Shown here one piece after another: positions 13,716-36,801 of a DNA stretch of 40,165 bases (positions within the stretch are counted from its first letter, which is position 1; each line of letters opens with the position of its first letter). The stretch lies in assembly GCA_027021615.1 (NCBI GenBank), contig JALUTY010000051.1, positions 1 to 40,165 on the forward strand. Direction: 5' to 3'. The stretch comes from a bacterium (lineage in GTDB: Bacteria; Desulfobacterota; Deferrisomatia; Deferrisomatales; Deferrisomataceae). Position numbers and translations under genes: made by a program. The notes beneath the pieces are model-generated. The model saw only the letters and a list, made by a program, of their open reading frames with translations, had not been told where the DNA came from and made no database searches.

Positions 13716-13745
13716 TTGCCTTGCCGCCGTCGGTTGGGCTACCAT
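13716..13745 (+). promoter_or_regulatory. Candidate BREX operon promoter
   Basis: TTGCCT (13716-13721) and TACCAT (13740-13745) are 18 bases apart. They lie about 30 bases before the start of the leader ORF at 13778. Confidence 0.4.
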
Positions 13746-13777
13746 CCCGAACCGTTGTTTCCACGGAGGGGGATCGC

Positions 13778-14904: not shown

Positions 14905-15442
14905 CCGTTTGGTGCGATCGTATGCCGCCCACATCGCCGTGCCGTGGCGGGACGATGCGGCCCCGGCCCAGCGGGTGATCTTCTGCGTGTACCCCGAGGC
15001 CGAGGAGCGCTCCCTGCGGGCCAAGGTGGACGAGTTCGAGCTGGCCACCCGCCAGGCCGGGCACGGCTGGGCCCTGTTCGACCTCACCGACACCTTTGCC
15101 GAGTGGATGGCGTCGCAGCGCTACGCCAAGAAGTACTTCGCGAAACCGCACCTGCTCGCGCCGCTCCTGCCCAAGTACCTGGGTTACATCCAGGAGCGGT
15201 TCGAGGCGTTTCTCGCCCAGACCGGGGCCGATGCCGACACCGTGGTAGCCGTGCTCGGCGTGGGCTCCCTGTTCGGATTCCTGAAAGTGAAAGAAATGGT
15301 GGACCGGCTGGCGCCCCTGGTGCCGGGCCGGTTCCTCGTATTCTTCCCCGGCAGCCACGAGGACAACAACTACCGGCTCCTCGACGCCTACGACGGCTGG
15401 AACTACCTGGCCGTGCCGATCACGGCCGACCGTGCCTTCTGA
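14891..15442 (+). CDS. brxB: BREX protein BrxB (DUF1788)
   Basis: A 183-residue BrxB protein, part of the type 1 BREX complex with no known enzymatic activity. The DUF1788 family features visible are VIFCVYPEAEERSLRAKVDE, then LGVGSLFGFLKVKEMVD and FPGSHEDNNYRLLDAYDGWN. It starts at GTG 14891, overlapping the brxA stop by 14 bases, so translation is coupled. brxC starts 15 bases after its stop. It is normal in length and has no odd features. Confidence 0.95.
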   Translation: MSRVDRLVRSYAAHIAVPWRDDAAPAQRVIFCVYPEAEERSLRAKVDEFELATRQAGHGWALFDLTDTFAEWMASQRYAKKYFAKPHLLAPLLPKYLGYIQERFEAFLAQTGADADTVVAVLGVGSLFGFLKVKEMVDRLAPLVPGRFLVFFPGSHEDNNYRLLDAYDGWNYLAVPITADRAF

Positions 15443-15457
15443 GAAAGGTGGGCTCGA

Positions 15458-18892: not shown

Positions 18893-18897
18893 AATTG

Positions 18898-18971
18898 TCT
18901 TCCTTGAATCCCCTCCCAGGCGCCCCTCACCCCCGGCCCCTCTCCCGGGAGGAGAGGGGAGTCAAGGAAGA
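18898..18971. repeat. 74-bp palindromic MITE/REP-like element between brxC and pglX
   Basis: Perfect 10-bp terminal inverted repeats, TCTTCCTTGA and TCAAGGAAGA, bound a C-rich then G-rich interior with the inner palindrome CCCCTCTCCC..GGAGAGGGG. The same CCTTGAATCCCC start occurs twice inside pglX. The element can fold into a hairpin and leaves the pglX Shine-Dalgarno intact. Confidence 0.8.
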
Positions 18972-18993
18972 GAGTTGGTTACAGGAGGAACGG

Positions 18994-21900
18994 ATGCAGC
19001 CGCTCGACCGATCCCTTCGCAACCGCCTGGAGCGCACCGTCAAGGAGGCCCGCGAGATCGCGGAGAGGGGCGCCCGGGCGGCCCTCGAGACCGTGGGCGT
19101 GGGCGAGCCTACCCGGTTTCCCCACCTGGGCGAGGCCCAGAGCGACCTGCGCCGCCGACTGCGGGCCCACGGCCGGCAGCTCGGCGACCGGCAAACGCCC
19201 CGGGGTGGGCAGGAGCTCGAACGGCTCGTGGAAGAGGTGGCCTACGAGCACTGGCACCGCATGCTGTTTGCCCGGTTCCTGGCCGAGAACGACCTGCTCA
19301 TGTACCCCGATCCGGACGCTCCGGTGTCCGTGACCCTGGAGGAGTGCGAGGACCTGGCCGCCGACGAGGGCGCCCGCAACGGCTGGGAGTTGGCGGCCCG
19401 GTTCGCGTCGCGCATGCTTCCCCAGATCTTCCGGCCCGACTCGCCGGTGTTCGAGCTGGACCTGCCCCCCGACCACCAGCAGGACCTGGAGCAGCTGCTG
19501 GCCGACCTGCCGTCTGAGGTGTTCCGTGCCTCCGACGCCCTGGGCTGGGTGTACCAGTTCTGGCAGTCCAAGCGGAAGGACGAGGTCAACAAGAGCGAGG
19601 TCAAGATCGGCGCCCGAGAGCTGCCGGCCGTGACCCAGCTCTTCACCGAGCCGTACATGGTGCAGTTCCTGCTCGACAACGCCCTGGGCGCCTGGTGGGC
19701 GGCCCGAAGGCTCGGCCCGGAGGATTGGCGCAGCGCGGCGGACGAGGAAGAGCTGCGCCGCAAGGCTTCCGTGGACGGCGTGCCGCTCACGTACCTGCGC
19801 CTAGTAAAAACCCCCCACCTTGAATCCCCCCTCCCCTCGCGCGAGGGGGGCCTGGGGGGAGGGAGCCTTGGGAACGGCGACGGCCCTGTGTCCCCCCCTC
19901 ACCCCGGCCCTCTACCCCCTCAGGGGGGAGAGGGAGAGGGCGCAGAGCACGGATATGTCTGGGCCCCCGCGGCCGGCACCTTCGACGCCTGGCCCCAAAG
20001 CCTGGCCGAGCTCAAGGTCCTGGACCCCTGCTGCGGCTCGGGGCACTTTTTGGTGGCCGCGCTGTTGATGCTCGTGCCCATGCGCATGGAGCTGGAGGGC
20101 CTTTCGGCCCGCGAGGCCGTGGACCGGGTGCTGGCCGAAAACCTCCACGGCCTCGACATCGACCAGCGGGTGACCGAGATCGCGGCCTTTGCCCTGGCCC
20201 TGGCCGCCTGGACCTACCCCAGCGCGGGCGGCTACCGGCCCCTGCCCGAGCTTCACATCGCCTGCTCGGGCCTGGCCGTGGCCGCGGCCAAGGAGGAGTG
20301 GAAGCGCCTGGGCCTGGGCCGGAAGAACCTGGCCCTGGCCCTCGACTGGATGCACGACGCCTTTCGCGACGCGCCCGTGCTAGGGAGCCTGTTGAACCCC
20401 GCCAGGACCGACGCGGCCGAACTGGTGGAGTGGTCCGAGTTGTCCGCCGCCCTGGATCAGGCGCTCGCCGCCTCGCCCGACGACAACGGGCATGAGCGCC
20501 GCGAGGCCGCGGTGGTGGCCCACGGCCTGGCCAAGGCCGCGGGCCTGCTCGCGGGCCGGTACCACTGGGTCATCACCAACGTGCCATACCTGGCCCGGGG
20601 CAAGCAGGCCGACCCCCTCAAGGCGTTCTGCCAGCGCCGCTACCCCAAGGCCAAGAACGACCTCGCCACCGTGTTCCTGGAGCGCTGCCTGGAGTTCTGC
20701 GTGGAGGGCGGCACCGTGAGCATCGTGCTGCCACAGAACTGGCTGTTCCTTACCACCTACCGCAAGCTCCGGGAGAAGCTGCTCCAGGACGAAACCTGGC
20801 ACCTGATCGCGCGGCTGGGGCCGCAGGCTTTTCAGACGCCGATGTGGGATTTCAACGTGCAGTTACTCACCCTGAGCCGCGGCCCGGCCGGCGGCCACGG
20901 CGGCGGGCTGCTGGGGGCGGGCGGGGCGGACAACCCCATCCGCGGCCTCGACGCCTCCGAACCCCGCACCGCCGCCGAAAAAGCCGCCCTGCTCCGCACC
21001 GCCGAGGTCAAGACCGTGGAGCAGGTGAAGCAGTTGGAGAATCCGGATGCAAGGGTGGCGTTGGAAGCACAAGAAAATGTCAAGTTGTTGAGTAAGTTGG
21101 CTTCGGCGTTGGTTGGTATTCAGACAGGGGATGACCCCTTTTTTGTGGTCAGATTCTGGGAGGTTTTCTGGCACAAAGAAGTTTGGTCCCTCTTGCAGAA
21201 TACCCCAACTGCCTGTGTAGAACATACAGGCCAGTCGTTCGTTTTGAGATGGTATAGTACAGGTTCTCTTTTAAATGAATCAAAGGGGTCAAGAGTACAA
21301 GGGCTCAAGGCTGTTGGCAAAGATGGTGTTGCAATACACAGAATGGACTCCCTTTTCGCGTACCACTACTGCAAGAGATTGTTTCATCAAAACGTGGTTG
21401 CAATTATCCCCAAAGACCGCGCCCACCTCCCCGCCATTTGGTGCTTCTGCTCCTCCCCGGAGTACAACGAGGCGGTCGGCCAAATCGACCAAAGTCTCAA
21501 GGTGACCAACGCCACCCTGGTCAAGGTCCCCTTCGACCTCGAACACTGGACCAGGGTCGCCCGGGAGAAGTACCCCCACGGCCTGCCCAAACCCTACTCC
21601 GACGACCCCACCCAGTGGATCTTCCACGGTCACCCGTGCGGGTCGGTGATCTGGGACGAGGAAAAGAAGTGGACGGCCCACGGCCCGCTGCGCACCGACC
21701 ACACCGTGCTCCAGGTGGCCGTGGCGCGGCTTCTGGGCTACCGCTGGCCGGCCGAACTGGACCCCGACATGGAGCTGGCCGACGAGCAACGGGAGTGGGT
21801 GCGGCGCTGCGAGGCGCTCCTGCCCTTTGCCGACGAAGACGGCATCGTGTGCATCCCGCCCGTGCGCGGCGAGCCGGCGGCGGCCGAGCGGCTCCTGAAC

Positions 21901-22653
21901 CTCCTGGCCGCGGCCTATAATCAATCCCCTACCTTGAATCCCCCCTCCCCTGGTGGGAGGGGGGCCTGGGGGGAGGGGGAAGTCAAGGAGGGGCAGGTCC
22001 CTGGAGGGGCCTGGTCGAACGACATCCTGGCCGAGCTCCTCCGAAACGCCGACCACGCGGGCAAAACCCTCGAGTCCTGGCTCCGCGACAAGTTCTTCGC
22101 CCAGCACTGCAAGCTGTTCCACCACCGCCCGTTCATCTGGCACATCTGGGACGGCCTGCGCGAGGGGTTCGCCGCGCTGGTGAACTACCACAAGCTCGAC
22201 CGCAAGAACCTGGAGACCCTGATCTACACCTACCTGGGCGACTGGATCGCCCGCCAGAAGCAGGACCTTGCCGACGGCGTGGACGGCGCGGCGGAGCGCC
22301 TGGCCGCGGCCGAGGGGCTCAAGAAGCGCCTGGAGCTGATCCTGGAGGGCGAGGCCCCCTACGACATCTTCGTGCGCTGGAAGCCCATCGAGCAACAACC
22401 CATCGGCTGGGACCCCGACCTCAACGACGGCGTCCGCCTGAACATCCGCCCCTTCATGACCGTGCCCGACGTCAAGAAAAAAGGCGCCGGCGTCCTCCGC
22501 GAAAAGCCGAACATCCACTGGAAAAAAGACCGGGGCAAAGACGTCGAATCCGCCCCCTGGTACCCCCTGTTCAAAGGCGACCGCATCAACGACCACCATT
22601 TGAGCCTGGCCGAGAAGCGGGCGGGACGGGAAAAAATGGAGGAGAGTGTGTGA
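18994..22653 (+). CDS. pglX: BREX adenine-specific DNA methyltransferase PglX
   Basis: A 1219-residue N6-adenine methyltransferase that marks host DNA at an asymmetric site so that BREX blocks only unmodified phage. SAM motif I is LDPCCGSGHFLVAALLML near residues 343-353. Motif IV reads TNVPYLARG near 528-536, where many relatives have NPPY. ATG 18994 follows AGGAGG. Two in-frame palindromic elements add about 42 residues near 275-317 and 19 near 980-998; both encode Pro/Gly-rich linkers. From about 21040 to 21420 (residues 682-809) base composition drops sharply (21 of 60 G+C in line 21241, against 45 of 60 in line 18541), which suggests recombination in the target-recognition region. The C-terminal LFKGDRINDHHLSLAEKRAG is echoed by a relic at 28130. 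Its stop overlaps the next ATG. Confidence 0.95.
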   Translation: MQPLDRSLRNRLERTVKEAREIAERGARAALETVGVGEPTRFPHLGEAQSDLRRRLRAHGRQLGDRQTPRGGQELERLVEEVAYEHWHRMLFARFLAENDLLMYPDPDAPVSVTLEECEDLAADEGARNGWELAARFASRMLPQIFRPDSPVFELDLPPDHQQDLEQLLADLPSEVFRASDALGWVYQFWQSKRKDEVNKSEVKIGARELPAVTQLFTEPYMVQFLLDNALGAWWAARRLGPEDWRSAADEEELRRKASVDGVPLTYLRLVKTPHLESPLPSREGGLGGGSLGNGDGPVSPPHPGPLPPQGGEGEGAEHGYVWAPAAGTFDAWPQSLAELKVLDPCCGSGHFLVAALLMLVPMRMELEGLSAREAVDRVLAENLHGLDIDQRVTEIAAFALALAAWTYPSAGGYRPLPELHIACSGLAVAAAKEEWKRLGLGRKNLALALDWMHDAFRDAPVLGSLLNPARTDAAELVEWSELSAALDQALAASPDDNGHERREAAVVAHGLAKAAGLLAGRYHWVITNVPYLARGKQADPLKAFCQRRYPKAKNDLATVFLERCLEFCVEGGTVSIVLPQNWLFLTTYRKLREKLLQDETWHLIARLGPQAFQTPMWDFNVQLLTLSRGPAGGHGGGLLGAGGADNPIRGLDASEPRTAAEKAALLRTAEVKTVEQVKQLENPDARVALEAQENVKLLSKLASALVGIQTGDDPFFVVRFWEVFWHKEVWSLLQNTPTACVEHTGQSFVLRWYSTGSLLNESKGSRVQGLKAVGKDGVAIHRMDSLFAYHYCKRLFHQNVVAIIPKDRAHLPAIWCFCSSPEYNEAVGQIDQSLKVTNATLVKVPFDLEHWTRVAREKYPHGLPKPYSDDPTQWIFHGHPCGSVIWDEEKKWTAHGPLRTDHTVLQVAVARLLGYRWPAELDPDMELADEQREWVRRCEALLPFADEDGIVCIPPVRGEPAAAERLLNLLAAAYNQSPTLNPPSPGGRGAWGEGEVKEGQVPGGAWSNDILAELLRNADHAGKTLESWLRDKFFAQHCKLFHHRPFIWHIWDGLREGFAALVNYHKLDRKNLETLIYTYLGDWIARQKQDLADGVDGAAERLAAAEGLKKRLELILEGEAPYDIFVRWKPIEQQPIGWDPDLNDGVRLNIRPFMTVPDVKKKGAGVLREKPNIHWKKDRGKDVESAPWYPLFKGDRINDHHLSLAEKRAGREKMEESV
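19818..19943. repeat. Composite palindromic element inserted in frame in pglX
   Basis: It starts with CCTTGAATCCCCCCTCCCCT as in the other copies, followed by AGGGGGG..GGGGGGAGGG. A second unit, CCCCTCACCCCGGCCCTCT..AGGGGGGAGAGGGAGAGGG, follows. It is translated as a Pro/Gly/Ser-rich segment just before methylase motif I, without breaking the frame. Confidence 0.75.
21932..21988. repeat. 57-bp palindromic element inserted in frame in pglX
   Basis: CCTTGA and TCAAGG bound the element, and the arms beyond them match imperfectly (CCTTGAATCCCCCCTCCCC against the complement CCTTGACTTCCCCCTCCCC). Its length, 57 bp, is exactly 19 codons. It encodes a Pro/Gly/Glu-rich linker. Confidence 0.75.
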
Positions 22654-23084
22654 TGAGAGATTCCAGTGCACCGAACACGTCATTTGAGTTGCGAATCACT
22701 CGTGCGAATCGTGATATTGATGTTTCAGTGCCAGCAGTCGAGAAGGAAGTGCTCGCGAGCGTGGCTCGGGTCCTCAAAGAAGCTGAAGATAACGGCGTTG
22801 AGCTGAAGCGAAGCGGGAACCAATTGTCGAGCAAAGACCTTCGGGCCATGTATAGAAAACTGGCATCGGCAGCATGGGAGAGCGGAGAGCTTGCAGGCGA
22901 GAGCCCACCGAATCCTCTGCATCGTGAGCACAGTGGCTGGGAACTGCCGCTTGAGAATGAACCAGGTCAGCTGGGAAGGGAGTACAAACTTCCGTGGCCG
23001 ATCCTAGCGATAGATGTGATCGACTTCCTCTCTAGCATGATGGGTGCGGTTGACGAGCTCGTCTGGGAGGAGGGTGCATCATGA
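22653..23084 (+). CDS. 143-residue protein of unknown function, first gene of the PIN/ATPase module
   Basis: I do not recognise this protein. It starts at ATG 22653, which overlaps the pglX stop as TGATG, and ends in ATGA overlap with the PIN gene, so it is translationally coupled on both sides. Residues 10-60 look like a mixed beta-alpha domain (FELRITRANRDIDVSV, then a long Glu/Lys-rich helix). Residues 112-140 are hydrophobic and helical (LPWPILAIDVIDFLSSMMGA) but too polar for a clear membrane segment. Composition is AT-richer than the flanking BREX genes, as in the next two genes. It could be an adaptor, immunity or regulatory subunit of the module; that is inference. Confidence 0.75.
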   Translation: MRDSSAPNTSFELRITRANRDIDVSVPAVEKEVLASVARVLKEAEDNGVELKRSGNQLSSKDLRAMYRKLASAAWESGELAGESPPNPLHREHSGWELPLENEPGQLGREYKLPWPILAIDVIDFLSSMMGAVDELVWEEGAS

Positions 23085-24967
23085 GGTTGCCAATCCCTGA
23101 GGGGTTTTCCGGCTGGTGGGACGAATGCCATTTGCCGCAAGAGGCACTCACAATAAGGCTCACATGGCGAAGTGGCGCCGAATTCACTCTTGGGGAACTC
23201 AATCCTGTGCTCGGAGCGTTTCGCTTCTCTCCCAATCCCGACAAGTTTACTGGAGAGGGGGCGGAGCGCGTGGGGCGAATGGTAGGCAAGGCCCTCACCA
23301 GAGCCGGATGGCTTCGCCCTCATCTGGACCCAGAGGCATTGCTCCGCCTCATCGTCGTCCGGTCGGAGCCCTCTCGCGTCGAGTTTATCCTCGACACCAA
23401 CGCCTTGGTGGAGGGCATTGGACACTGGCTTGCCGACCATTTCGCCGACCGATGCGATCTCGTGGTAACCGCAGTTACCCTTCGAGAACTCCAAGATTTG
23501 AAGGGGCAAGCCCGGTTTAACGAAAAGGTCCCAAAGGAGGACAACCAGGCGGAGAACCGGGCGAAGATGCTCGGTGCTCGCCAAGCTTACTTGTCGGCAA
23601 ACCGGTTCCGGGAACAAGTGGGGTATAAGCGAATACTGTGGCGCGAACTTGAGTTGGACGATACGGCGCTGCTTCTGTCGCGGGGATCAGCGGACACCAA
23701 GTCGTCGGAGTCCGATACCTTGCTCTTGCGTGCTGTGCGGCGAAGTATCCACGATCGTGTGAATAAGCTCGAGCGTTTCTTTGTCACCGGTGACAATGCG
23801 CTGGCCCGCCGCGCCGCGACCGAACTGCCCGAGGGAAGCCTGATTGCTGCTCAGGTGCGCGAGGTGAGAGCCGGTGACGTCCTGTTCCCTTGCAGTTGGT
23901 GGCCTGGACCCGACCAAGGATTCCGGGTGTCACGCCACCCCGCTCGGCTGATATGGGAGTTGTTGTGTATCGGCGATCAGGTGAAACTTGAGGCACATGA
24001 TGGGAAAACGTGGGCCTTCCGTGCCTTTGATAATCCCATGTGGCCATCGGATTATCTGAAGCCCTGGATCGACGTAGCAGAACCTGCTTTAGAGGATGTC
24101 CACGGCGGGGGCCCCGGAGAACTCATTGCACGTTCCTTGAGCGAGGCGGACAACTCCGTAACAGCGGAGAACAGAGCAGCCCCAGATACAAGGCAAGAAG
24201 CGCCAGGATCTATTTGGCGAGTTCCTTCGAAGAATATGCTCAAGCTGGATAGGAATCTCCGCCTTTCCGCAAAGACCACACTCGATGTGTTGGGTACTTT
24301 GGTTGCCAGTGAGAAGAATGAGGTCCATCTCCCGCAAGGCATTGCCGACGAAAAGGCGCGGCGCCACCTCTGTGCCTTTCTTAAGGAGCTTGACTTGGCA
24401 GACGTTGATTTAAACTCGTGGGTAGCGCGTCGCCTATCACGGCACGAAGATTTGGTAGCCGCCTGGTGTAGTAATGATCATGATGCCCTTTTCGATTTGC
24501 TTCGGGGGTGGTTGCCGCTTGAGGAATGGGCCACGAACAAAAATCCACCCCAAAGACCCGAAAAGACGCAGGGTAGCGCAAGAGCATTGGCAGCCCTTCT
24601 ATCGCAGGGGCTATACATTGATCAGCAGTGGCTTCCGGGGGGCTCCCGGCCGGGATTGACCGAAATGCGCCAGGCCATTCTTGATGCTGTCCCTAGAGGA
24701 CCCGAACCCGCGATTCCTGTTTATACACTTTTGGTCGATGTGTTTTTGCGGCGTCTCGGCGTGGCCCCTGCCCGCATAGTCCATGCGTGGGACAAACTTT
24801 GGAGCATGGGAGTGTTCGACGGATTCGAACCTAGGGAGGGGGGAACGTCGTCCGGTCAGAGGTTCCAGGAGATTGCGCGGCTCACCGAAGGCGGCTGGGA
24901 TCGGGAAAGGATAGATCTGGAGGCCATAGATGGCACACGAGATCTTCTGTACAGGAGAACGTCATGA
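23081..24967 (+). CDS. Large PIN-domain protein (putative RNase), second gene of the module
   Basis: A 628-residue protein with a PIN nuclease domain at about residues 100-245. The four acidic metal-binding residues are visible: Asp105 (FILDTNALV), Glu136 (TLRELQDL), Asp212 (ESDTLLLRAV) and Asp238 (VTGDNALARRA). A 140-residue insertion-rich PIN such as this resembles PhoH/PIN-4 types more than the small VapC toxins. The first 100 residues and the C-terminal 380 are unfamiliar; residues 400-620 are helical and may bind a partner. PIN domains cut RNA, so the expected outcome is RNA cleavage in infected cells. ATGA overlaps join it to both neighbours. Its composition points to recent transfer. 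Confidence 0.82.
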   Translation: MRLPIPEGFSGWWDECHLPQEALTIRLTWRSGAEFTLGELNPVLGAFRFSPNPDKFTGEGAERVGRMVGKALTRAGWLRPHLDPEALLRLIVVRSEPSRVEFILDTNALVEGIGHWLADHFADRCDLVVTAVTLRELQDLKGQARFNEKVPKEDNQAENRAKMLGARQAYLSANRFREQVGYKRILWRELELDDTALLLSRGSADTKSSESDTLLLRAVRRSIHDRVNKLERFFVTGDNALARRAATELPEGSLIAAQVREVRAGDVLFPCSWWPGPDQGFRVSRHPARLIWELLCIGDQVKLEAHDGKTWAFRAFDNPMWPSDYLKPWIDVAEPALEDVHGGGPGELIARSLSEADNSVTAENRAAPDTRQEAPGSIWRVPSKNMLKLDRNLRLSAKTTLDVLGTLVASEKNEVHLPQGIADEKARRHLCAFLKELDLADVDLNSWVARRLSRHEDLVAAWCSNDHDALFDLLRGWLPLEEWATNKNPPQRPEKTQGSARALAALLSQGLYIDQQWLPGGSRPGLTEMRQAILDAVPRGPEPAIPVYTLLVDVFLRRLGVAPARIVHAWDKLWSMGVFDGFEPREGGTSSGQRFQEIARLTEGGWDRERIDLEAIDGTRDLLYRRTS

Positions 24968-26163
24968 GTGATCTTTTTCAGATTCCTATCTACGGTGCGA
25001 GCGAAGATTCCACGAATCCGTTTGAACGTTTTGACCTCAGAGATAATCCGTTCCCAGCAGCAGGGGTGGACTCCGGAGTTCTATACCAAAGACATATGGA
25101 GAAAGAGATTGCGCAGATAAATAGATGGATTCAAGAAGTCGGAAACGCGACAGCATTGGATAAGGGCTCTCCTGGCCCAGTTCATCCGCTTGCTATCTAT
25201 GGATCCATCGGTGTAGGAAAGACTCATCTGCTTAGATATCTGCAGCGAGGATTGTCTCAAAATGAGTTCACACCAGTTTTAAGAAAGGGGCTCGCAGACG
25301 AGGGGATGACACGGCTGGTCCTCGCCAATCTATTCCTACGATACCTTCCGTTCCAAGAGACTGACGACGAACCTGGGACGGGGCTTATCAAAAAAATTAT
25401 CGAAGCAGCAAAACAGAACCACAAGCAGGACGAGATACTTAACACACTCCGTGACGGTAGCCCAATAGCGATTCCATTCAAGATTTTACTTAAGAAAGAC
25501 ATTGAGAATGATGCGGTCATATGGATGTCACGCTGGCTTCGTCGTGAATACACCACACCTGCACAACGCGCGAAACTGGGCATCGCTGGTGTATTGCAAA
25601 GTGAGGGCGAGGCTGTTCGTGCGGTTGCAGATCTGCTCAGGTTGTCGAGGGCCGCGAAGGTGCTACAGGTGTGGTTCGTAATGATCGACCAGCTTGAGGA
25701 GCTTTGGCGGCCCGGAGTCATCACGTCATCGCGGCGAGCCCGTTTTCTAACGGACCTCCGCCACCTTGTTGACCAAGCTCTTGAAGGGGCTCCAATTGCG
25801 CTTCTGCTGGCCTGGAATACAACGGTAACCGAGAGCGCGTTCGCGAGCGATGTCTCGCATCAGATGAAAAGGGACTATCGTGCGTTATGGCAGCGACTCG
25901 GTAATACTGTGAATCTCCCGCCATTGTCGGAAACAGACGTGTGGCCCTTTGCCAAGAAGTATCTGGAGAAGGCCGGTGTCAATGATGCGGCCGCAGAAAG
26001 GCGCAAGGATCTGTTCCATAAACTAAAGGCGGCTACGGAAGATGTTATTTCACAAATCCAGGGAGAAACAGCTCGGGGGGTTAAAGCACCATTGACACCT
26101 CGTTCAGTGCTACAGGCATGGCGAGACAAAGCTCTGGAGATTGCTACCGAAGCAAGACAATAG
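24964..26163 (+). CDS. P-loop ATPase, third gene of the PIN/ATPase module
   Basis: A 399-residue STAND/ORC-like ATPase. Walker A is GSIGVGKTH (residues 80-88) in LAIYGSIGVGKTHLLRYLQR; Walker B is VWFVMIDQLEELW with Asp242. The N-terminal FERFDLRDNPFPAAG, preceding a helix and the P-loop, resembles ExeA/MSP-type and Cdc6-like ATPases. The C-terminal 100 residues are helical and end without a further domain. It starts at ATG 24964 inside an ATGA overlap with the PIN gene. The local sequence is only 31 of 60 G+C in line 25021. It may be the sensor or activator of the PIN protein; nothing in the sequence proves this. A 245-bp gap without genes follows. Confidence 0.82.
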   Translation: MSDLFQIPIYGASEDSTNPFERFDLRDNPFPAAGVDSGVLYQRHMEKEIAQINRWIQEVGNATALDKGSPGPVHPLAIYGSIGVGKTHLLRYLQRGLSQNEFTPVLRKGLADEGMTRLVLANLFLRYLPFQETDDEPGTGLIKKIIEAAKQNHKQDEILNTLRDGSPIAIPFKILLKKDIENDAVIWMSRWLRREYTTPAQRAKLGIAGVLQSEGEAVRAVADLLRLSRAAKVLQVWFVMIDQLEELWRPGVITSSRRARFLTDLRHLVDQALEGAPIALLLAWNTTVTESAFASDVSHQMKRDYRALWQRLGNTVNLPPLSETDVWPFAKKYLEKAGVNDAAAERRKDLFHKLKAATEDVISQIQGETARGVKAPLTPRSVLQAWRDKALEIATEARQ

Positions 26164-26408: not shown

Positions 26409-27527
26409 ATGATCAGACGTCTCTATATCGACAACTACAAGTGCCTGGTGAACTTCGACCTGGAGCTGGACGAGCTGTCGCTCCTGTTAGGGCCCAACGG
26501 CGTAGGGAAGTCGTCGGTGCTGGATGTGCTCTACGCGATCCGCCAGCTCCTCAGCGGTGTGGCCAAGATCACAGATCCGGACATATTCCCGACCTCAACC
26601 CTCACCCGGTGGCAGTCGCGCGATGTGCAGGTGTTCGAGCTCACCTTCGAGTTCGATGACGAGCCCGAGCCCCTGACGTACCGGCTGGAGGTCCAGCACG
26701 AGCGCGTTAGGCACCGGGCACGTGTGTGGCTGGAGCGGCTCGCGGCAGGCGACCGCCCGTTGTTCGAGTTCCGGGAGGGCGAGGTCCAGCTCTACCGGGA
26801 CAAACACTCGGAAGGGCCTGTGTACACTGCGGACTGGTCCGAGTCGGCCATGGCTCGCGTGGCCGAGCGCCACGACAACCAGCGCCTGTGCCGGGCGCGC
26901 GAGTTCGTGCGGAGAATCGTGGTGTGCGGGCTGTATCCGGCCCGCTTCGAGGCCGAGTCCCGCCGGGAGGACCCGATGCTGAGCCGGGACGGCTCGAACT
27001 TCTCGGCATGGTACCGCCACATTTTCCAGGAGCGGCAGGACCTGATCCCGGACTACATCGAAGCGGTCCGCGAGGTGGTGGACGCGTTTCACAGCGTGCG
27101 CCTGGAGAGGGTGGGCCAGGACGCACGAGCCCTCATGGTGATGTTCGAGGAGCCGGCCGGGGGGCGGTACGAGCTTCGCCTGGACGAGATCTCCGACGGG
27201 CAGCGGGCGCTCCTTGCGCTGTACGCCCTCGTGATCGCCACCGCCGGGCAGGGCTACTCGCTGTTCCTGGACGAGCCCGACAACTACGTCGCCCTGCCGG
27301 AGATCCAGCCGTGGCTGATGGCCCTGAAAGACGCCTGTGGCGAGGCAGTGCCCCAGGCGCTGCTCTGCTCCCATCACCCGGAGTTGATCGACTACCTCGG
27401 CCCCGAGTGCGGGGTGATGCTGCGGAGGGAGGCTTCTGGCGTGATCGTGCCCGAGGCAGTGCAAGTGCCGCCCGAGGAGGGAGGGCTGAAGCTGTCGGAG
27501 CTGGTGGCCCGGGGGTGGGAGCGATGA
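26409..27527 (+). CDS. AAA (ABC-like, OLD-type) ATPase, pair 1
   Basis: A 372-residue ATPase of the AAA_15/AAA_21 group, found in OLD, RloA, PARIS and similar defence systems. It starts MIRRLYIDNYKCLVNFDLEL; Walker A is GPNGVGKSS (residues 28-36). The ABC-like signature is ISDGQRALLALYAL, Walker B is SLFLDEPDNYVALPEI (Asp288, Glu289), and a switch His follows in LLCSHHPELI. ATG 26409 lies seven bases after GGGAG. Its composition returns to high GC. A TATAAC (26265-26270) upstream is a possible -10 box without a clear -35. It is coupled by an ATGA overlap to the TOPRIM-like gene, so the two probably act as one unit. Confidence 0.9.
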   Translation: MIRRLYIDNYKCLVNFDLELDELSLLLGPNGVGKSSVLDVLYAIRQLLSGVAKITDPDIFPTSTLTRWQSRDVQVFELTFEFDDEPEPLTYRLEVQHERVRHRARVWLERLAAGDRPLFEFREGEVQLYRDKHSEGPVYTADWSESAMARVAERHDNQRLCRAREFVRRIVVCGLYPARFEAESRREDPMLSRDGSNFSAWYRHIFQERQDLIPDYIEAVREVVDAFHSVRLERVGQDARALMVMFEEPAGGRYELRLDEISDGQRALLALYALVIATAGQGYSLFLDEPDNYVALPEIQPWLMALKDACGEAVPQALLCSHHPELIDYLGPECGVMLRREASGVIVPEAVQVPPEEGGLKLSELVARGWER

Positions 27528-28075
27528 GCCGGAGGGCGCAACTGGTCCTCCTGTGCGAGGACTCCCAGCACGAGGCGTTTGCCCGACGCTTTCTCAAGAG
27601 GATGGGCTGGAACCGCCACAGGATCCGGGTGGAGAAAGCGCCGGGAGGGCGCGGCTCGGGCGAGCAGTTCGTGCGGGCTCGGTTTCCCCTGGAGTTGGGC
27701 GAGCACCGGCGGCGCCACGCGGCCCAGGCCCTCGTGGTGATGCTGGACGGCGATGCGGATGGGGTGGATGCACGTGTCCGCGGCCTGGACGACGCCTGCA
27801 CGGCCAAGGGCATCCCGGCCCGCCGGCCGGGAGAGCCGGTCGCGGCATTTGTGCCCACTTGGAACATCGAGACCTGGCTTGCCTATCTCGACGGGGAGAG
27901 CGTGGACGAGGCCAGAAAGGACTACCCCAGATTGCGTCCCGAGCGCGAGTGCGGAAGGCACGTGAAAGTTCTCGTGGCCATGTGCCGCGACGGCAAGCTG
28001 CGTCCCCCAGAACCGCCGTCGCTGGTGAGCGCGTGCGAGGAGTATGCTGCCCGGCTTCGCGAGGTTGGACGGTAA
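27524..28075 (+). CDS. TOPRIM-like (DUF4276/RloB-like) partner, pair 1
   Basis: A 183-residue protein with TOPRIM-like acidic residues: Glu12 in LVLLCEDSQHEAF, and Asp75/Asp77/Asp79 in VVMLDGDADG. VPTWNIETWLAYL also recurs in DUF4276-like partners of defence ATPases. Such pairs include RloA/RloB and the AriA/AriB pair of PARIS, in which the TOPRIM protein is the effector nuclease. Which subtype this is cannot be decided by eye. It starts at ATG 27524 inside the ATPase stop (ATGA). It is short compared with AriB (about 300 residues). The relic of a second pglX begins shortly after its stop. Confidence 0.75.
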   Translation: MSRRAQLVLLCEDSQHEAFARRFLKRMGWNRHRIRVEKAPGGRGSGEQFVRARFPLELGEHRRRHAAQALVVMLDGDADGVDARVRGLDDACTAKGIPARRPGEPVAAFVPTWNIETWLAYLDGESVDEARKDYPRLRPERECGRHVKVLVAMCRDGKLRPPEPPSLVSACEEYAARLREVGR

Positions 28076-28129: not shown

Positions 28130-28213
28130 GTGTTCAAAGACGACCGCATCAACGACCACCACCTGACCCTGGTCGAGAAACGAGCCGTCCGGGAGGCAAA
28201 GCATGTTGAATGA
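28130..28213 (+). pseudogene. Relic of a second pglX 3' end
   Basis: The frame ending at TGA 28211-28213 encodes VFKDDRINDHHLTLVEKRAV and then REAKHVE. This matches the last residues of the intact PglX (LFKGDRINDHHLSLAEKRAG) 5.5 kb upstream. At DNA level 28131-28194 matches 22568-22631 at about 54 of 64 positions by my count. Nothing upstream in this frame resembles PglX, so only the tail survives. The Shine-Dalgarno and start of the next AAA gene lie inside it, as expected if that gene originally followed another pglX directly. Confidence 0.85.
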
Positions 28214-29216
28214 AGTCGAGGTCAAGAACTTCGGCCCCCTTGTGGAGCTGGGTTGGCGGGATCTCGGGCCGATCAATCTGGTGATCGGTGACAACGGATC
28301 CGGGAAGACGTTCCTGTTGAAGGTCCTCTACACCGCCGTGCGGACGCTAGAGGAGTACAAGCGGGGCGACGAGCGACGAAGCGCGGCCGAGATTCTGGCC
28401 GAGAAGCTCTACTGGACCTTCCAGCCGGACAAGATCGGCGACCTGGTGACAAAGGGGGCGGACGGCGGCTTGTCGTGCAGGGTCCAGGTTGACGGGCGGG
28501 ACTTTCTGTACCGGTTTGGCAGAGATACGACGAAGCAGATCTCGTTCCTGGAGAACCATGTTCCTCCCAGGGCGAGCAATTCCATTTTCTTGCCAGCCAA
28601 GGAAGTGTTGTCCATCCACAACATCATTCTCAAGTCCCGCGAGCAGGACAAAGTATTCGGTTTCGACGATACGTACCTCGATCTTGCCCGGGCCCTGCGC
28701 CAGGTTCCTGTAAAAGGAAAGAATTATCGGGAATTCGCCGAGTCGAGGAGGCAGTTGGAGGGAATGCTGGGGGGGCGTGTGGAGTACGACGAGGCGTCCG
28801 GGCGTTGGCAGTTCAAGAAAGGCAACCAAAAGTTTCCCATCGGGGTGACCGCCGAAGGGGTCAAGAAGATCGCCATTCTGGATACGCTGCTTGGGAACCG
28901 CTATCTGGATCCGGGCTCGATCGTGTTCATCGACGAGCCGGAGGCCGCGCTGCATCCAGACGGGCTCTTGAGGCTGCTCGACATCATTGCGTTGCTCGCC
29001 AAGCGCGGGATGCAGTTCTTCCTGGCCAGCCATTCGTACTTCGTGGTCAAAAAGCTGTTCTTGATCGCCCAAAAGGAAGACCTGCACATCCCCGTGGCCT
29101 CATGCCACGAAAGCCAGTGGGCGTCCGCGGATCTCCGCGAAGGGATGCCGGAGAACCCCATCATCCAGGGGTCGATCCGGCTGTACAAAGAAGAAGTGGA
29201 GTTGGTGCTCGAATGA
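28203..29216 (+). CDS. AAA ATPase, with small partner, in BREX cargo
   Basis: A 337-residue AAA_15-like ATPase distinct from pair 1. It starts MLNEVEVKNFGPLVELGWRD; Walker A is GDNGSGKTF (residues 29-37), Walker B is GSIVFIDEPEAALHPDG, and the switch motif is FFLASHSYFVVKKL. The middle segment (about residues 95-230) is specific and contains FLPAKEVLSIHNIILKSREQ. ATG 28203 uses GGAGG within the pglX relic, so it was probably coupled to a former pglX. It overlaps its partner by ATGA. Such ATPases accompany many BREX loci as cargo, but the mechanism is not known. Confidence 0.9.
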   Translation: MLNEVEVKNFGPLVELGWRDLGPINLVIGDNGSGKTFLLKVLYTAVRTLEEYKRGDERRSAAEILAEKLYWTFQPDKIGDLVTKGADGGLSCRVQVDGRDFLYRFGRDTTKQISFLENHVPPRASNSIFLPAKEVLSIHNIILKSREQDKVFGFDDTYLDLARALRQVPVKGKNYREFAESRRQLEGMLGGRVEYDEASGRWQFKKGNQKFPIGVTAEGVKKIAILDTLLGNRYLDPGSIVFIDEPEAALHPDGLLRLLDIIALLAKRGMQFFLASHSYFVVKKLFLIAQKEDLHIPVASCHESQWASADLREGMPENPIIQGSIRLYKEEVELVLE

Positions 29217-29740
29217 CCACGAAGCCGATCGTCGAGTCCGGGATGACCTTTGGGCCGTATCCCGAGGGTAGGTGTTTTCACGTGGAGAACAGCCGCGCCT
29301 ACGCAGCCATCCAGGAAGGCGTGAAGGTCGCGGAGTTCGTGCTGCTGCGCGAGGGCAAGCGAAGGCCGGCTTCTCTCTGGGTGGTGGAGGCCAGGTCGAG
29401 CACGCCGAGGCCAGAAACACAGCCAAATTTCGACCTATTCATCGCCGAGATCCGGGAGAAACTGGTCAACGCCTTCTCGCTGGTGTGGGCGTGCTGCCTG
29501 AAGCGCCATCGGCGGGCCGATGCGGAGCTGCCGGATCGTTTCAAAGCAGTTGATCTCTCTCGAGCTGACGTGAAGTTCGTCCTGGTGATCCAGGGCCACC
29601 GGGAGGAGTGGTTGCCCCCTCTTCAGGAGGCGCTGTACGAGGCGCTGCGCCCGACCGTGAAAACGTGGGCGTTCTCACCCACGGCGGTGGCCGTCATGAA
29701 CGACGCGATGGCACGGGAGAGGGACTTGATCCGCGAGTGA
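29213..29740 (+). CDS. 175-residue partner of the AAA ATPase, unknown function
   Basis: I do not recognise a named family. The protein begins at ATG 29213 in ATGA overlap with the ATPase gene, so it is its obligate neighbour. Residues 32-62 form two strands around EFVLLREGKRRPASLWVVEA, recalling the core of a PD-(D/E)xK-like fold (a Glu on the second strand), but the usual Lys is replaced by Arg/Ser. The rest alternates helices and strands (DVKFVLVIQGHREEW). It could be a degenerate nuclease or a sensor that holds the ATPase in check. High-GC composition matches the ATPase. It is followed by palindromic repeats, not by a direct gene. Confidence 0.75.
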   Translation: MTTKPIVESGMTFGPYPEGRCFHVENSRAYAAIQEGVKVAEFVLLREGKRRPASLWVVEARSSTPRPETQPNFDLFIAEIREKLVNAFSLVWACCLKRHRRADAELPDRFKAVDLSRADVKFVLVIQGHREEWLPPLQEALYEALRPTVKTWAFSPTAVAVMNDAMARERDLIRE

Positions 29741-29958: not shown

Positions 29959-30012
29959 CGGGGTGATAGTCGGTCCATAGGGCATCGGACCGGCAGCGTC
30001 AAGCGAGGATTC

Positions 30013-30096
30013 ATGGGCCAGGGGGTGATCGTGTACATCGACGGGTTCAACCCGTACTTCGGCCTCCGGTCGAAGGGGTGGGAGAAAGCCCCATGA
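30013..30096 (+). pseudogene. N-terminal stump of an NYN/PIN-like domain gene, coupled to pglZ
   Basis: ATG 30013 opens a 27-codon frame. It contains GVIVYIDGFNPYFGLRSKGW, the typical first strand of LabA-like NYN-domain nucleases (V-x-x-I/F-D-G-F/x-N-L/x-Y), including the first catalytic Asp. It ends at TGA 30094-30096, which overlaps the pglZ start as ATGA. A full NYN protein needs about 150-200 residues, so this is a truncated relic. GAGG lies four bases before the ATG, so the stump may still be translated and feed ribosomes into pglZ. Confidence 0.65.
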
Positions 30097-32441
30097 GAGT
30101 GGTGGAGCATCTGGTCACAGCGATCCGCCGGGCCGGAAGGCACAACCCGGACGTGCAGGTGGCGCCGGCGTGCATCCTGTGGCCCGACAGGGACCGGCAG
30201 TGGGAGGCCGTGATCCCGCGGTTGCAAAGCGAGCTGCCGGAGCTCCTGGTGCTCGGCGAGTACGCGCCCGAGCGGCACACCGGGCCGGCCATCTGGCTCC
30301 GGTGCGTGCTGGCCGGTACGGTGGACGACGTGGCTCTGCCCGGGGACCGGGTGCCGATCCTGTACCTGCCCGGGGTGGGCCGGGCGGACCTGCGGGCCGT
30401 GGAGGAGTGCCCCGACCGGCTGAAGCCCCTGGCGGAGCTCCAGTACCGGGGCGTGATCTGGTCGCAGGTCAACGCCAAGGACTGGACGGTGCTCGCCTTC
30501 CTCAAGTCGGACCAGGGGGGCCTGGGGCTCGACGTGGCCCAGAACCAGGAGACGAAAAGCGCCTTGTTGCTGGCCCTGCCGCTCCTCCTCGACGAAGAGG
30601 TGGAGCGGCTCCGGGGCAAGCGCCTCGACGCGGACGACCTCAACACGCTCCTGACCGGGGGCGACCCCATCCGGGACCTGCTTCGGTGGCTCGACCAGGG
30701 CGACGAATTCCAGGCTGGGTGCGACGAGGCCAAGTGGAAGGCGCTGGTGTCGGTGTGCCGGTCGCAGCTCGGGTTCGATCCGCAAAACGAGGGGGTGCTG
30801 GCCGGTTCCGCAAAGCTGGCGGCTCGGCAGGGGCCGTGGCAGGCGGTGTGGGAGCGGTTCTGCGAGGCGCCCCGCCGGTACCCGAACCTTCCGGACCGGA
30901 TCCGCCAGTGCAAACCTCCGGCGTTCGATCTGTTTGCAAACTGCGACACGGCCGGCGGCTGGCCCCAGTGGAACGAAACCCAGGAACAAAGCCTCCGGGG
31001 AAGCCTAACCCTTCTGGAGCGCCTGCCCCCCCACGGGGCCCGCAAACGGCTTCGAGAGTTGGAGCGGCGGCACGGCGAGCGGCGCTCCCTGGTGTGGGCG
31101 GAGCTGGGAGAGACCCCGCTCGCGTGTTCGTTGGAGCACCTGGCCGCGCTGGCCGAACACACCGAGTCGGCCCTGGCAGGGGGCACGGCCGAGGATCTGG
31201 TGGCAGCTTTCCGTACCGGCGGATGGAAGGCGGACGATGCCGCGGTGCAGGCCCTGGCCTGCGCGACGGCGGCGCAGGACCGGGAGGCGGTGACCGCCGC
31301 GATCCGTGCGGTGTACGCGCCCTGGCTCGAGGACTCGGCCCGCTACCTTCAGCAGGTGGCGGCCCGGGACGGGTACCCCGGTGGGGATTTCCGTTCGTGC
31401 GGGCCGGTGGGGGGAGAAGACGGGGACTGCGTGCTCTTTGTGGACGGCCTGCGGTTCGACCTGGCCAGGCGGCTCGCGGCTCTTCTGGAACGGGCCGGGC
31501 TCGCGGTGGACGAGGAGCCGTTCTGGGCCGCACTGCCCACCGTGACCGCCACGGGCAAGCCGGCGGTCTCGCCCGTGGCCGACCGCATCCGGGGGGCGGA
31601 GGGCACCGCGGATTTCGAGCCGGTGGTGGACGAGACCGGCCAGTCTCTCAAGGGCGGATACCACCTGCGCAGGCTCCTGACCGAGGCCGGGTGGACCGTG
31701 TTGGGCCCCGGGGAGAACGGCGACGGCCGGGGCCGTGCGTGGTGCGAGTTCGGCGACATCGACCACGAGGGCCACGACAAGGGCTGGAAAATGGTGCGCC
31801 ACTTGGACGGGCTGCTCGGGGAGGTCCGGGAGAAGGTCGAAGGCCTGCTGGCGTCCGGGTGGAGACGGGTGCGGGTGGTGACGGACCACGGCTGGCTGCT
31901 CCTGCCCGGGGGCCTTCCAAAGACGGAGCTCGCGAGCGGTCTGACCGAGCACAAGTGGGGCCGGTGCGCCAGCCTCAAGCCCGGCGCGTCCACGGACGAG
32001 CGGCTCTACCCCTGGCACTGGGACCCCACCCAGCACGTGGCCCTGGCCGACGGCATCGGGTGCTACCGGACCGGGCTGGAGTACGCCCACGGCGGCCTGA
32101 GCCTCCAAGAGTGTTGCCTGCTCCGGCTCACGGTATCTGCCGGCGCGGGCGGGGGTGCCTCGGCGGCCGTGGAGGTGACTGATGTGGTGTGGAAGGGCCT
32201 CCGGTGCAAGGTGGCGGTGGATGGGGAGTTCGCAGGGCTCCGGCTCGACGTTCGAACCCATGCGGGTGATCCCGGGGCGAGCGTCGCTCTCAGCATCAAG
32301 CCGATCGGCGAGCACGGCACCGCCTCGGTGGTCGTGGAGGACGAGGCCTTGGAAGGGAGACAGGCGTTCGTGGTGCTCCTGGACGAGAGGGGATGTCTGA
32401 TCGCCCAGGTGCCCACGGTGATCGGCGGGGAGGCGCGGTGA
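30093..32441 (+). CDS. pglZ: BREX phosphatase-like protein PglZ
   Basis: A 782-residue PglZ with an alkaline-phosphatase-like domain, the signature protein of BREX. LFVDGLRFDLARRL near residue 448 holds the first metal/nucleophile region, ATGKPAVSPVADR follows, and VRVVTDHGWLLLPGG near 595 has the conserved DHG. The first 400 residues are the helical N-terminal part of type 1 PglZ. ATG 30093 overlaps the stop of the NYN stump (ATGA), with no independent Shine-Dalgarno close by other than GGGAG about 9 bases upstream. Its TGA overlaps the brxL ATG. The gene lies 7.4 kb from pglX, whereas the two are adjacent in compact BREX loci. Confidence 0.95.
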   Translation: MRVVEHLVTAIRRAGRHNPDVQVAPACILWPDRDRQWEAVIPRLQSELPELLVLGEYAPERHTGPAIWLRCVLAGTVDDVALPGDRVPILYLPGVGRADLRAVEECPDRLKPLAELQYRGVIWSQVNAKDWTVLAFLKSDQGGLGLDVAQNQETKSALLLALPLLLDEEVERLRGKRLDADDLNTLLTGGDPIRDLLRWLDQGDEFQAGCDEAKWKALVSVCRSQLGFDPQNEGVLAGSAKLAARQGPWQAVWERFCEAPRRYPNLPDRIRQCKPPAFDLFANCDTAGGWPQWNETQEQSLRGSLTLLERLPPHGARKRLRELERRHGERRSLVWAELGETPLACSLEHLAALAEHTESALAGGTAEDLVAAFRTGGWKADDAAVQALACATAAQDREAVTAAIRAVYAPWLEDSARYLQQVAARDGYPGGDFRSCGPVGGEDGDCVLFVDGLRFDLARRLAALLERAGLAVDEEPFWAALPTVTATGKPAVSPVADRIRGAEGTADFEPVVDETGQSLKGGYHLRRLLTEAGWTVLGPGENGDGRGRAWCEFGDIDHEGHDKGWKMVRHLDGLLGEVREKVEGLLASGWRRVRVVTDHGWLLLPGGLPKTELASGLTEHKWGRCASLKPGASTDERLYPWHWDPTQHVALADGIGCYRTGLEYAHGGLSLQECCLLRLTVSAGAGGGASAAVEVTDVVWKGLRCKVAVDGEFAGLRLDVRTHAGDPGASVALSIKPIGEHGTASVVVEDEALEGRQAFVVLLDERGCLIAQVPTVIGGEAR

Positions 32442-34483
32442 TGGAGCTCGACCATCTGGACCGCAAGGCGGCGTCGGTGCTCGACGGATACCTGGTGCGC
32501 AAGGACCTGGTGCGCGCGTTCAGCCGGCAGTTCCCGGTGCCTACCTACGTGGTGGAGTTCATGCTCGGCCGGTACTGCGCCAGCACCGACCCGGACGAGA
32601 TCGAGGAGGGGCTGGAGATCGTCCAGCGGCAACTGGCCGAGCGCACCGTGAAGGCGGGCGAGGAGGAGCTCTTCAAGTCGCGGGCCCGGGAGCGCGGGCG
32701 GGTCAAGATCATCGACGTGGTCTCCGCGCGGCTGGACGCGAAAACCGACTCGTACCTGGCCACCATCCCGAGCCTCAGGCTCACGGACGTGCGGATCGAG
32801 GACGAGCTGGTCCGGCGGCACGAGCGGATGCTGACCGGCGGATTCTACGCCGAGATCACGTTGTGCTACGACGCGATCATCGCCCAGGAGAGAAACGGCC
32901 GGCCGTTCGGCGTGGAGGCGCTTCGGGAGATCCAGCTCTCCAAGCGGGACGTGCTCGAGACCCTGGCCGAGGCCCGGGAGGCGTTCACCACGGAGGAGTG
33001 GAAGGACTTCCTGCTGCGCTCCATCGGCATCGAGCCCGCAGGGCTGACTGAGCGACAGAAGAACGCGTTCCTCCTGCGCATGGTCCCCTTCGTGGAAAGA
33101 AACTACAACCTGGTGGAGCTGGGGCCCCGGGGCACCGGCAAGAGCCACTTGTTCCAGCAGGTGTCGCCCTACGCCCACCTGATCTCGGGGGGCAAGGCCA
33201 CCGTGGCCCGGATGTTCGTGAACAACGCCACGGGCCAGCGGGGCCTGGTGTGCCAGTACGACGTGGTGTGCTTCGACGAGGTATCGGGCATCTCGTTCGA
33301 TCAGAAGGACGGGGTGAACATCCTCAAGGGCTACATGGAGTCGGGGGAGTTCAGCCGGGGCCGCGAGAGCATCCGGGCCGACGGGAGCATCGTGCTGGTG
33401 GGGAACTTCGACGTGGACGTGGAGCACCAGCAGCGGATCGGGCACCTGTTCGGCCCCCTGCCGCCGGAGATGCGAAACGACACCGCGTTCATGGACCGGA
33501 TCCACGCCTACCTGCCGGGGTGGGACGTGCCCAAGATCGGGCGGGAGCTGCTGACCGACCACTTCGGCCTGGTGAGCGACTTTCTGTCGGAGTGCTGGAG
33601 CCAACTGCGCAGGCAGAGCCGCGTGGGCGTGCTGCAGAACCGGGTGTTCTACGGCGGCGCCCTCTCGGGACGCGACACGAACGCGGTGAACAAGACCGCG
33701 AGCGGGCTCCTGAAGCTCCTGCACCCGGGCGGCGGCGAGGTTCCGGACGACGAGCTGGAGTGGGCCGTGCGGATCGCCATGGAAGCTCGACGCCGGGTCA
33801 AGGAGCAGCAGAAGCGCATCGGCGCGGCCGAGTTCCGGAACACCCACTTCAGCTACGTGATGGGGGCCGACGGGGTGGAGAAGTTCGTCTCGACCCCGGA
33901 GCTCCAGAACGAGAACCGTATCGGCGCAGACCCGCTGGAGCCGGGTCAGGTGTGGACCATCTCGCCCGGCGGGGAAGGGGAGCACCCGGGGCTGTTCCGG
34001 ATTGAGGTGAACGAGGGGCCCGGCTCCGGGGTGAAGATCCTGAACAAGCCGGTGCCGCCCCCGTTCCGGGAGAGCACGGGCTATGCCGAGCAGAACCTAT
34101 ACGCCCGCGCCCTGCAGTTGGTGGGCGACAAGGACCCCCGACACCATGAGTTCACCGTGCAGCTCCGGGCCTTTGACGCGGCCAAGACCGGGGCCAAGAC
34201 CGGCGTGGCCGCCCTGATCGCCCTGTGCACCGCCCTGCTGAAGAAGAGCGTGCGCGGCGGGCTGGTGATCGTGGGCGAGGTGAACCTGGGCGGCTCCATC
34301 GAGCCCGTGCACAACGCCGTGACCATGGCCGAGATCGCCCTGGAGAAAGGCGCCACGGCCCTCCTCATGCCGGTGGCCTGCCGGCGGCAACTGTTCGATC
34401 TGTCGGACGACATGGCCACCAGGATCGACATCCAGTTCTACTCGGACGCCCGGGATGCGCTGCTGAAGGCGATCGCGGAGTAG
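32441..34483 (+). CDS. brxL: BREX Lon-like AAA+ protein BrxL
   Basis: A 680-residue BrxL, an AAA+ ring protein that binds DNA and is needed for defence but not for methylation in type 1 BREX. Walker A is GPRGTGKSH near residues 228-236; Walker B is VVCFDEVSG near 275-283. The C-terminal 100 residues are a Lon-protease-like domain, but where Lon has GPSAG this protein has GAKTG, and the Lys of the dyad is also missing, so proteolysis is unlikely. ATG 32441 overlaps the pglZ stop by one base (TGATG). Length is typical. A relic of a different BrxL lies at 36505-36801. Confidence 0.94.
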   Translation: MELDHLDRKAASVLDGYLVRKDLVRAFSRQFPVPTYVVEFMLGRYCASTDPDEIEEGLEIVQRQLAERTVKAGEEELFKSRARERGRVKIIDVVSARLDAKTDSYLATIPSLRLTDVRIEDELVRRHERMLTGGFYAEITLCYDAIIAQERNGRPFGVEALREIQLSKRDVLETLAEAREAFTTEEWKDFLLRSIGIEPAGLTERQKNAFLLRMVPFVERNYNLVELGPRGTGKSHLFQQVSPYAHLISGGKATVARMFVNNATGQRGLVCQYDVVCFDEVSGISFDQKDGVNILKGYMESGEFSRGRESIRADGSIVLVGNFDVDVEHQQRIGHLFGPLPPEMRNDTAFMDRIHAYLPGWDVPKIGRELLTDHFGLVSDFLSECWSQLRRQSRVGVLQNRVFYGGALSGRDTNAVNKTASGLLKLLHPGGGEVPDDELEWAVRIAMEARRRVKEQQKRIGAAEFRNTHFSYVMGADGVEKFVSTPELQNENRIGADPLEPGQVWTISPGGEGEHPGLFRIEVNEGPGSGVKILNKPVPPPFRESTGYAEQNLYARALQLVGDKDPRHHEFTVQLRAFDAAKTGAKTGVAALIALCTALLKKSVRGGLVIVGEVNLGGSIEPVHNAVTMAEIALEKGATALLMPVACRRQLFDLSDDMATRIDIQFYSDARDALLKAIAE

Positions 34484-36446: not shown

Positions 36447-36504
36447 CTGTCAAGGTGGGGGTGCCCATTCAAAACGAGGCGTCCCTGCGAGCCATGACAG
36501 ACTC

Positions 36505-36801
36505 ATGACAGGAATCGGTGTGGCGTTCTTCGTGGCCGTCTACTCGGTGCTGCGCAAAGCCTCGGCCCAGCCGGGGCTCCTGGTCCTCGGGGGCCTGAGC
36601 ATCCAGGGCAACATCAAGCCCGTACGGTCGCTGATGGACCAGCTGCAGGTCGCCATGGACAACGGCGCCAAGCTCGCCCTCCTCCCCATCGAGAACGAGC
36701 GCAGCTTCTCAGACGTCTCCGCCGAGGTGCTCGAGAACGTGGACCCGGTGTTCTACGGCGACCTGCGCCAGACGGCGTTCAAGGCGCTGAGGTTGACGTA
36801 A
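36505..36801 (+). pseudogene. Relic of a second brxL (C-terminal Lon-like domain)
   Basis: About 98 codons encode only the C-terminal domain of a BrxL: GVAFFVAVYSVLRKASAQPG, then LSIQGNIKPVRSLMDQLQVA, and ENVDPVFYGDLRQTAFKALR at the end. The IQGN-KP and DPxFYGD motifs are those of standard type 1 BrxL and differ from the intact BrxL at 32441, whose domain aligns but has GGSIEPV and FYSDARDALL instead. The AAA+ part is missing and no ribosome binding site is obvious, so the relic is probably not expressed. It marks an earlier BREX copy or a replacement. The 87 bases after its stop hold nothing I recognise. Confidence 0.82.

Follow-up and report, generated by a model that had tools for sequence, protein, structure and literature searches.

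The DNA analysed here, called the window throughout, is the whole of contig C51 (40,165 nt) of a 4.25-Mb draft genome. It carries an operon in which brxA, brxB, brxC, pglX, pglZ and brxL are all present in this order, each matched by PADLOC, and which is predicted on this basis to be a BREX-1 class system. Irregular pglX genotypes were reportedly described in the 2015 paper which defined BREX. brxA starts at 14188, brxB at 14891 and brxC at 15458. The intact pglX (18907-22653, 5' end approximate; PADLOC PglX E=0, 1783.7 bits) encodes a BREX-1 class adenine methyltransferase and is the only pglX in the whole genome; it lies on the plus strand, as do the genes and features listed behind it. pglZ (30093-32441; 1072.7 bits) and brxL (32393-34483; 1000.4 bits) follow. 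Inside pglX a palindromic, GC-rich repeat occurs in frame in two copies (19799-19863 and 21913-21977, 86% identical), and similar repeat-coded peptides are apparent elsewhere in the gene. Upstream of brxA a tmRNA gene (10046-10407) is directly followed by an apparent P4-type integrase gene (10444-11757). Because of this neighbourhood the 3' end of the tmRNA gene may be the integration site of the whole BREX island; the window was checked for a second copy of the tmRNA end, which would mark the right border of such an island, and has none.

pglX and pglZ are separated by 7.4 kb of other genes. A small gene of 144 codons (22653-23084; GC3 0.56), the start of which overlaps the pglX stop (TGATG), is followed by a large gene of 628 codons (23081-24967; GC3 0.61) and an AAA ATPase gene (24964-26163; GC3 0.50) with a weak AAA_22 match below cut-off. 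The PIN identity originally assigned to the large gene was not confirmed by any family match, and 'PIN' is kept here as a label only. Next comes an AAA_21 ATPase gene, MAD3/HEC-01A-like by its family matches (26409-27527), with a partner (27524-28075). Relatives of the AAA_21 gene lie directly behind intact pglX in the loci L085 and L114, where homologues of the partner are 53% and 45% identical. Neither PADLOC nor the family profiles matched the 22653-23084, 23081-24967 and 27524-28075 genes; the TOPRIM identity proposed for the AAA_21 partner thus has a motif in its favour and no family match. The genes at 28203-29216 and 29213-29740 are HEC-02A, an ATPase, and HEC-02B, its partner (PADLOC E=2.6e-158 and E=2.4e-66). 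Being adjacent, they constitute a HEC-02 candidate system according to PADLOC. Just before pglZ a fragment at 30010-30090, VIVYIDGFNPYFGLRSKGWEKAP, by eye resembles the start of a NYN/LabA-type nuclease; it is probably another lost cargo gene.

Between the AAA_21 pair and HEC-02A lies a relic of pglX (28131-28213). An unprompted repeat search of the window aligned 28131-28194 in direct orientation with 22568-22631 near the end of the intact pglX (64 nt, 84% identical). The longest exact run between the two tails is 21 nt, CGACCGCATCAACGACCACCA. Translated in the frame of the pglX tail, the relic ends with VFKDDRINDHHLTLVEKRAVREAKHVE and the stop TGA at 28211-28213. A profile HMM of intact PglX tails (six frames, 91 loci) matched it with 38.2 bits and E=2.4e-9. 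The second pglX tail which the original prediction had placed about 5.5 kb downstream of the intact gene was thus recovered by two approaches, and the 'last 27 codons', stop included, were read correctly. In-frame similarity to the PglX C-terminus, absence of the upstream part and the single pglX of the genome together qualify this stretch as a relic. Upstream of it nothing recognisable of a pglX body is present, and the 55 nt directly before it were not traced to any parent sequence. As had also been proposed, the next AAA gene takes its Shine-Dalgarno sequence from the relic: GGGAGG at 28191-28196 is located 6 nt ahead of the HEC-02A start codon (ATG 28203), and the relic stop falls within the first codons of HEC-02A (ATGTTGAATGA).

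From which pglX was the relic derived? In a comparison of 91 loci the neighbouring pglX of the window ranked only 12th (54/64 nt, 84%). Eleven intact tails of other bacteria were closer, the best being that of a Syntrophus locus (60/67 nt, 90%). Because these eleven match better, the relic is not a recent copy of the neighbouring pglX, and the sequence similarities support a derivation from another pglX allele. A relic as close to the intact gene as a recent duplicate, the pattern which had been named at the outset as speaking against a displaced older gene, was not what was found. The alignment with related PglX tails, suggested as a means to assign the relic to a clade, therefore distinguished the allele from the resident one; a relic of 27 codons is too short to be placed firmly in a phylogeny, and no clade can be named.

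Genes located right behind such relics are in relatives very often found directly behind an intact pglX, mostly with an ATGA overlap. Identities between the gene behind the relic and the gene behind the intact pglX of the relative were 96.7% for L120/L121, 94% for L079/L088, 86% for L117 compared with L098 and L097, and 77-80% for L089 and L145 compared with L084; many further pairs show the same arrangement. Because post-relic genes adjoin intact pglX in these relatives, the proposed older order, i.e. pglX followed by cargo, is supported in general. In none of the genomes searched did the window-type HEC-02A itself directly follow an intact pglX of this BREX class. The only HEC-02A behind an intact pglX was a 37% homologue on a BREX-2 plasmid of Polaromonas. 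Among the loci listed, a second BREX-borne HEC-02A of the type seen in the window is present in L117 only (71% identical), where it likewise follows a pglX tail. Searches of about 400 genomes each from the phylum of the window and from that of Marinobacter yielded no HEC-02A locus with BREX neighbours. Viral contigs contained no HEC-02A relatives; they contained six PglX loci, one of which has a relic of a pglZ head (L153). Two presumed further cases, HEC-02A directly behind the intact pglX of L110 and behind the relic of L148, were discarded, as both positions are occupied by a different ATPase of the L120 type.

How common are such seams? GTDB genomes were scanned with a PglX C-terminal alignment, and 80 loci out of 570 PglX relatives were inspected together with flanks of up to 10 kb on either side; the set was enlarged by seven plasmid loci and by three from the phylum of the window. 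Extra tails were counted above a score of 9 bits in the 67 loci with a whole pglX-pglZ interval, using the opposite strand as a control. An extra pglX tail or a whole second pglX was present in 13 of the 67 complete intervals, the two complete second genes included. All 13 were on the coding strand and none was on the minus strand. Clear cases were L102, L117 (with two tails), L093, L148, the window, L094, L145, L111 and L038. The tails of L120, L089 and L079/L080 score weakly in the profile and were settled by alignment; L135 and L079, the pglZ start of which was unmapped in the 67-interval count, are further cases. The relics form a graded series. It extends from a complete second pglX in L094 and L111 (48% and 55% identical to the first) via a fragment of 118 amino acids in L102 to about 17-45 codons in the remaining loci. 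In most seams the relic stop overlaps the start codon of the next gene. The tail of L079/L080 forms an in-frame fusion with the preceding ATPase, and the relics of L120 and L145 are very degraded. In five loci (L038, L089, L102, L135 and L148) the relic is closest to the pglX of the same locus (90-96%), therefore duplication, or an exchange among closely related alleles, takes place as well. Tail duplication was essentially absent from E. coli BREX (398 places in 397 records); because of this the seam may be particular to the present BREX class with its large cargo slot.

In two instances both parents of a seam were identified. Two Desulfotignum loci, L087 (pglX-AAA-pglZ) and L088 (pglX-426aa gene-pglZ), represent the two parental types of L079. 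Positions 5121-7282 of L079 are 93% identical to L087 and positions 7282-8445 are 93% identical to L088. The switch to L088-like sequence occurs at one base, 56 nt before the L088 pglX stop; L080 has the same structure. In Marinobacter L120, positions 9614-15634 are 92% identical to Methylonatrum L083 and comprise the pglX end, the cargo and the first 18 nt of pglZ. Positions 15627-20639 are 95% identical to Marinobacter L121 over 5 kb, beginning 63 nt before the L121 pglX stop. This cross has its left end within pglX, about 1 kb upstream of the stop. In both triads the left ends are in homologous pglX and the right ends lack extended homology between the joined sequences. Parents of the window's own seam were not found among the loci compared, and the pattern of one junction with and one without extended homology is that of the L079 and L120 triads.

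What is directly seen is the relic, with an allele that differs from the resident pglX and an overlap with HEC-02A, and, in other genera, seams of the same kind for which both parents are available. From this, displacement of an older pglX by an incoming pglX together with cargo is probably the explanation for the relic in the window. An older, different pglX would once have stood directly ahead of HEC-02A/B. Incoming BREX DNA with another pglX and cargo would have recombined with the resident locus, pairing by homology on the left side, within pglX or upstream of it; its non-homologous right end, just past the cargo, would have been joined illegitimately within the old pglX near the stop of that gene. 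The body of the old pglX would have been lost and its last 27 codons kept, presumably because the old cargo needed the ribosome-binding site and the stop-start overlap. We infer that the window locus was made in the same way as the triads, and, on account of the stop-start overlap and the Shine-Dalgarno sequence, that the tail was retained for translation. The seams are located 53, 56, 63, 80, 83 (window), 108, 134, 151 and 327 nt before the pglX stop or a full gene away from it, with the lower limit of 53 nt being partly a matter of detection, as very short or absent tails would escape notice. Because seam positions scatter, no site-specific recombinase is implied. A short sequence common to the pglX end and the pglZ start, hinted at by the L120 junction, was considered as a general crossover site and rejected: in 77 loci the best 24-nt match averaged 13.45 compared with 13.50 for other parts of pglX.

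Other origins of the tail were weighed. Site-specific integration at the pglX 3' end, comparable to islands in tRNA or gene ends, would also leave a gene end duplicated at the far side of the insert, as the far attachment site, and an intact near copy, exactly the arrangement seen. Yet the offsets vary from 53 nt to a whole gene instead of indicating a fixed crossover, PADLOC and family profiles detected no recombinase family in this cargo, and the left end in L120 is about 1 kb before the pglX stop rather than at the tail; integration of this kind is extremely improbable. That the end of the resident pglX, or a pglX-cargo unit, was duplicated in tandem and then decayed might be read from the five other loci in which the extra tail is closest to the own pglX at 90-96%. 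A recent duplicate should then be closest to its own neighbour, and in the window eleven tails are closer than the 12th-ranking own pglX. The second genes of L094 and L111 are only 48% and 55% identical to the first, and the triads have two different parents. Duplication is thus quite unlikely as the origin of the window's relic.

Alternatively, the tail could belong to HEC-02 as a leader brought along from another BREX locus, which would be silent on an older pglX at this place. A pglX tail is indeed ahead of both BREX-borne HEC-02A genes of this type (window and L117), and in L173 a weak tail-like stretch (E=0.17) immediately precedes a HEC-02A that belongs to a sugar cluster. However, the remaining non-BREX HEC-02A loci have no tail, and the tails of window and L117 differ, those of L117 matching other pglX alleles. 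We consider a HEC-02-borne leader very unlikely. The L173 stretch (10178-10260), VDGNRMNVLHLNQADRHVAREEPC ended by a stop, overlaps the start codon of HEC-02A within a non-BREX nucleotide-sugar cluster and at E=0.17 is suggestive only. Finally, the tail might be a functional docking or translation-coupling element under selection itself and not a mere scar. The stop-start overlap and the Shine-Dalgarno sequence retained in most seams and the in-frame fusion to the preceding ATPase in L079/L080 would agree with this. Nevertheless, upstream relic sequence is frameshifted or lost, lengths vary widely and several tails, e.g. in L120 and L145, are very degraded. Such a role is unlikely, slightly less so than the other alternatives.

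Returning to displacement, the cargo ahead of the relic was probably added in more than one step, as judged from base composition and gene order. GC3 is 0.50-0.61 in the PIN trio, 0.82-0.89 in the ATPase/small-gene pair, 0.80 in HEC-02 and 0.86-0.95 in the BREX core, and the ATPase pair is present without the PIN trio directly behind pglX in L085 and L114. Because of this split at least two additions are suggested. The original prediction that a new pglX with the PIN module and the ATPase/TOPRIM pair had replaced the older gene therefore holds with respect to displacement, for which the two triads elsewhere speak; arrival as a single block is less favoured, given the GC3 split and L085 and L114. 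The idea that the cargo might be lost again by recombination between the two tails is weak, as exact identity is limited to 21 nt over a distance of 5.5 kb and no such deletion was seen.

Stacking is most evident in L117. Here, two almost identical seams lie between three cargos, the 71% HEC-02A among them; each seam starts with a pglZ head (about 75 codons), followed by a spacer and a pglX tail. The L117 repeat was also considered as a mobile RNA element; Rfam was empty there and the repeat is the pglZ head. The spacer (14126-14290 and 16182-16346) has a perfect palindrome of the type GGTAGCCAGACCA-TCC-TGGTCTGGCTACC. L149 and the viral contig L153 contain pglZ heads only. L093 and L135, both from Chlorobiaceae, have a 1.9-kb cargo unit plus relic tail in common at 92% and different genes behind it, a pattern which would fit an exchange of whole cargo units through the tails. 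Possibly, though we put this forward with some reserve, this BREX class uses its pglX-pglZ interval as a cargo stacker that operates without a recombinase. New alleles and defence genes would enter together and push older cargo downstream; the tails, and sometimes pglZ heads, would act as leaders for ribosome loading and also provide the homology through which whole cargo units are exchanged later. If so, the switch of BREX specificity and the gain of accessory defence would be one event.

Similar processes have been reported elsewhere. For the effector-immunity arrays of the Vibrio cholerae T6SS an origin by homology-facilitated illegitimate recombination was proposed (PMC5361080). As in the BREX seam, the core gene in front gives way to a new module and the old downstream gene is kept, the 3' end of the old gene can shift back, and arrays stack. 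The scatter of the seam offsets would fit the same combination, in which one side is joined by homology and the other illegitimately (PMC5361080). The difference is that immunity genes are kept in the T6SS arrays, whereas the BREX core gene is a methyltransferase and the genes kept are extra anti-phage cargo. C-terminal displacement in Rhs (Jackson et al., 2009, as cited in PMC5361080) likewise leaves a string of orphaned 3' regions downstream of an intact gene whose 5' part is conserved; the Rhs tips are variable toxins, whereas the 3' remnant in BREX is inert coding sequence, the gain consisting of whole cargo genes. Cargo embedded between pglX and pglZ is known from StySA compared with E. 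coli HS (PMC9009780), and auxiliary nucleases in BREX were surveyed (PMC12839542). According to the passages searched, the same slot is concerned, with variable ATPase/nuclease cargo; both papers report the cargo, and in these passages give no account of scars or of cargo entry. Phase variation of pglX (PMC11341690, PMC6326788) similarly points to pglX as the variable part of BREX; there, a repeat tract does the switching, whereas here one allele takes the place of another, in direct orientation and along with cargo. In the literature passages searched, no report described cargo scars that consist of displaced pglX ends. The scars are a readable record of the last-added gene, of the previous pglX and, in two cases, of both parents. 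They tie a change of pglX, the specificity gene, to the gain of cargo, and their recurrence in many unrelated bacteria shows how BREX defence clusters pile up genes.

A second, separate relic is located further downstream in the window. At 36502-36801, behind a MAD3/MAD4-like pair, the last ~95 codons of a foreign brxL are preserved (PADLOC BrxL E=3.8e-25, profile positions 585-678 of 680; TIGR02653 E=5.9e-25). Only 29 of 91 residues are identical to the resident BrxL; the best matches, at about 40%, are archaeal and cyanobacterial plasmid BrxL proteins. By its sequence this relic would represent a parallel displacement behind brxL, with another BREX lineage as the source. In L116 (17582-17746; E=7e-16) part of a brxL Lon domain lies about 0.7 kb behind the intact brxL. 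In L041 (7965-10372, minus strand) pglX codons 30-638 are joined directly to brxL codons 477-696; cargo and pglZ are gone, an apparent deletion.
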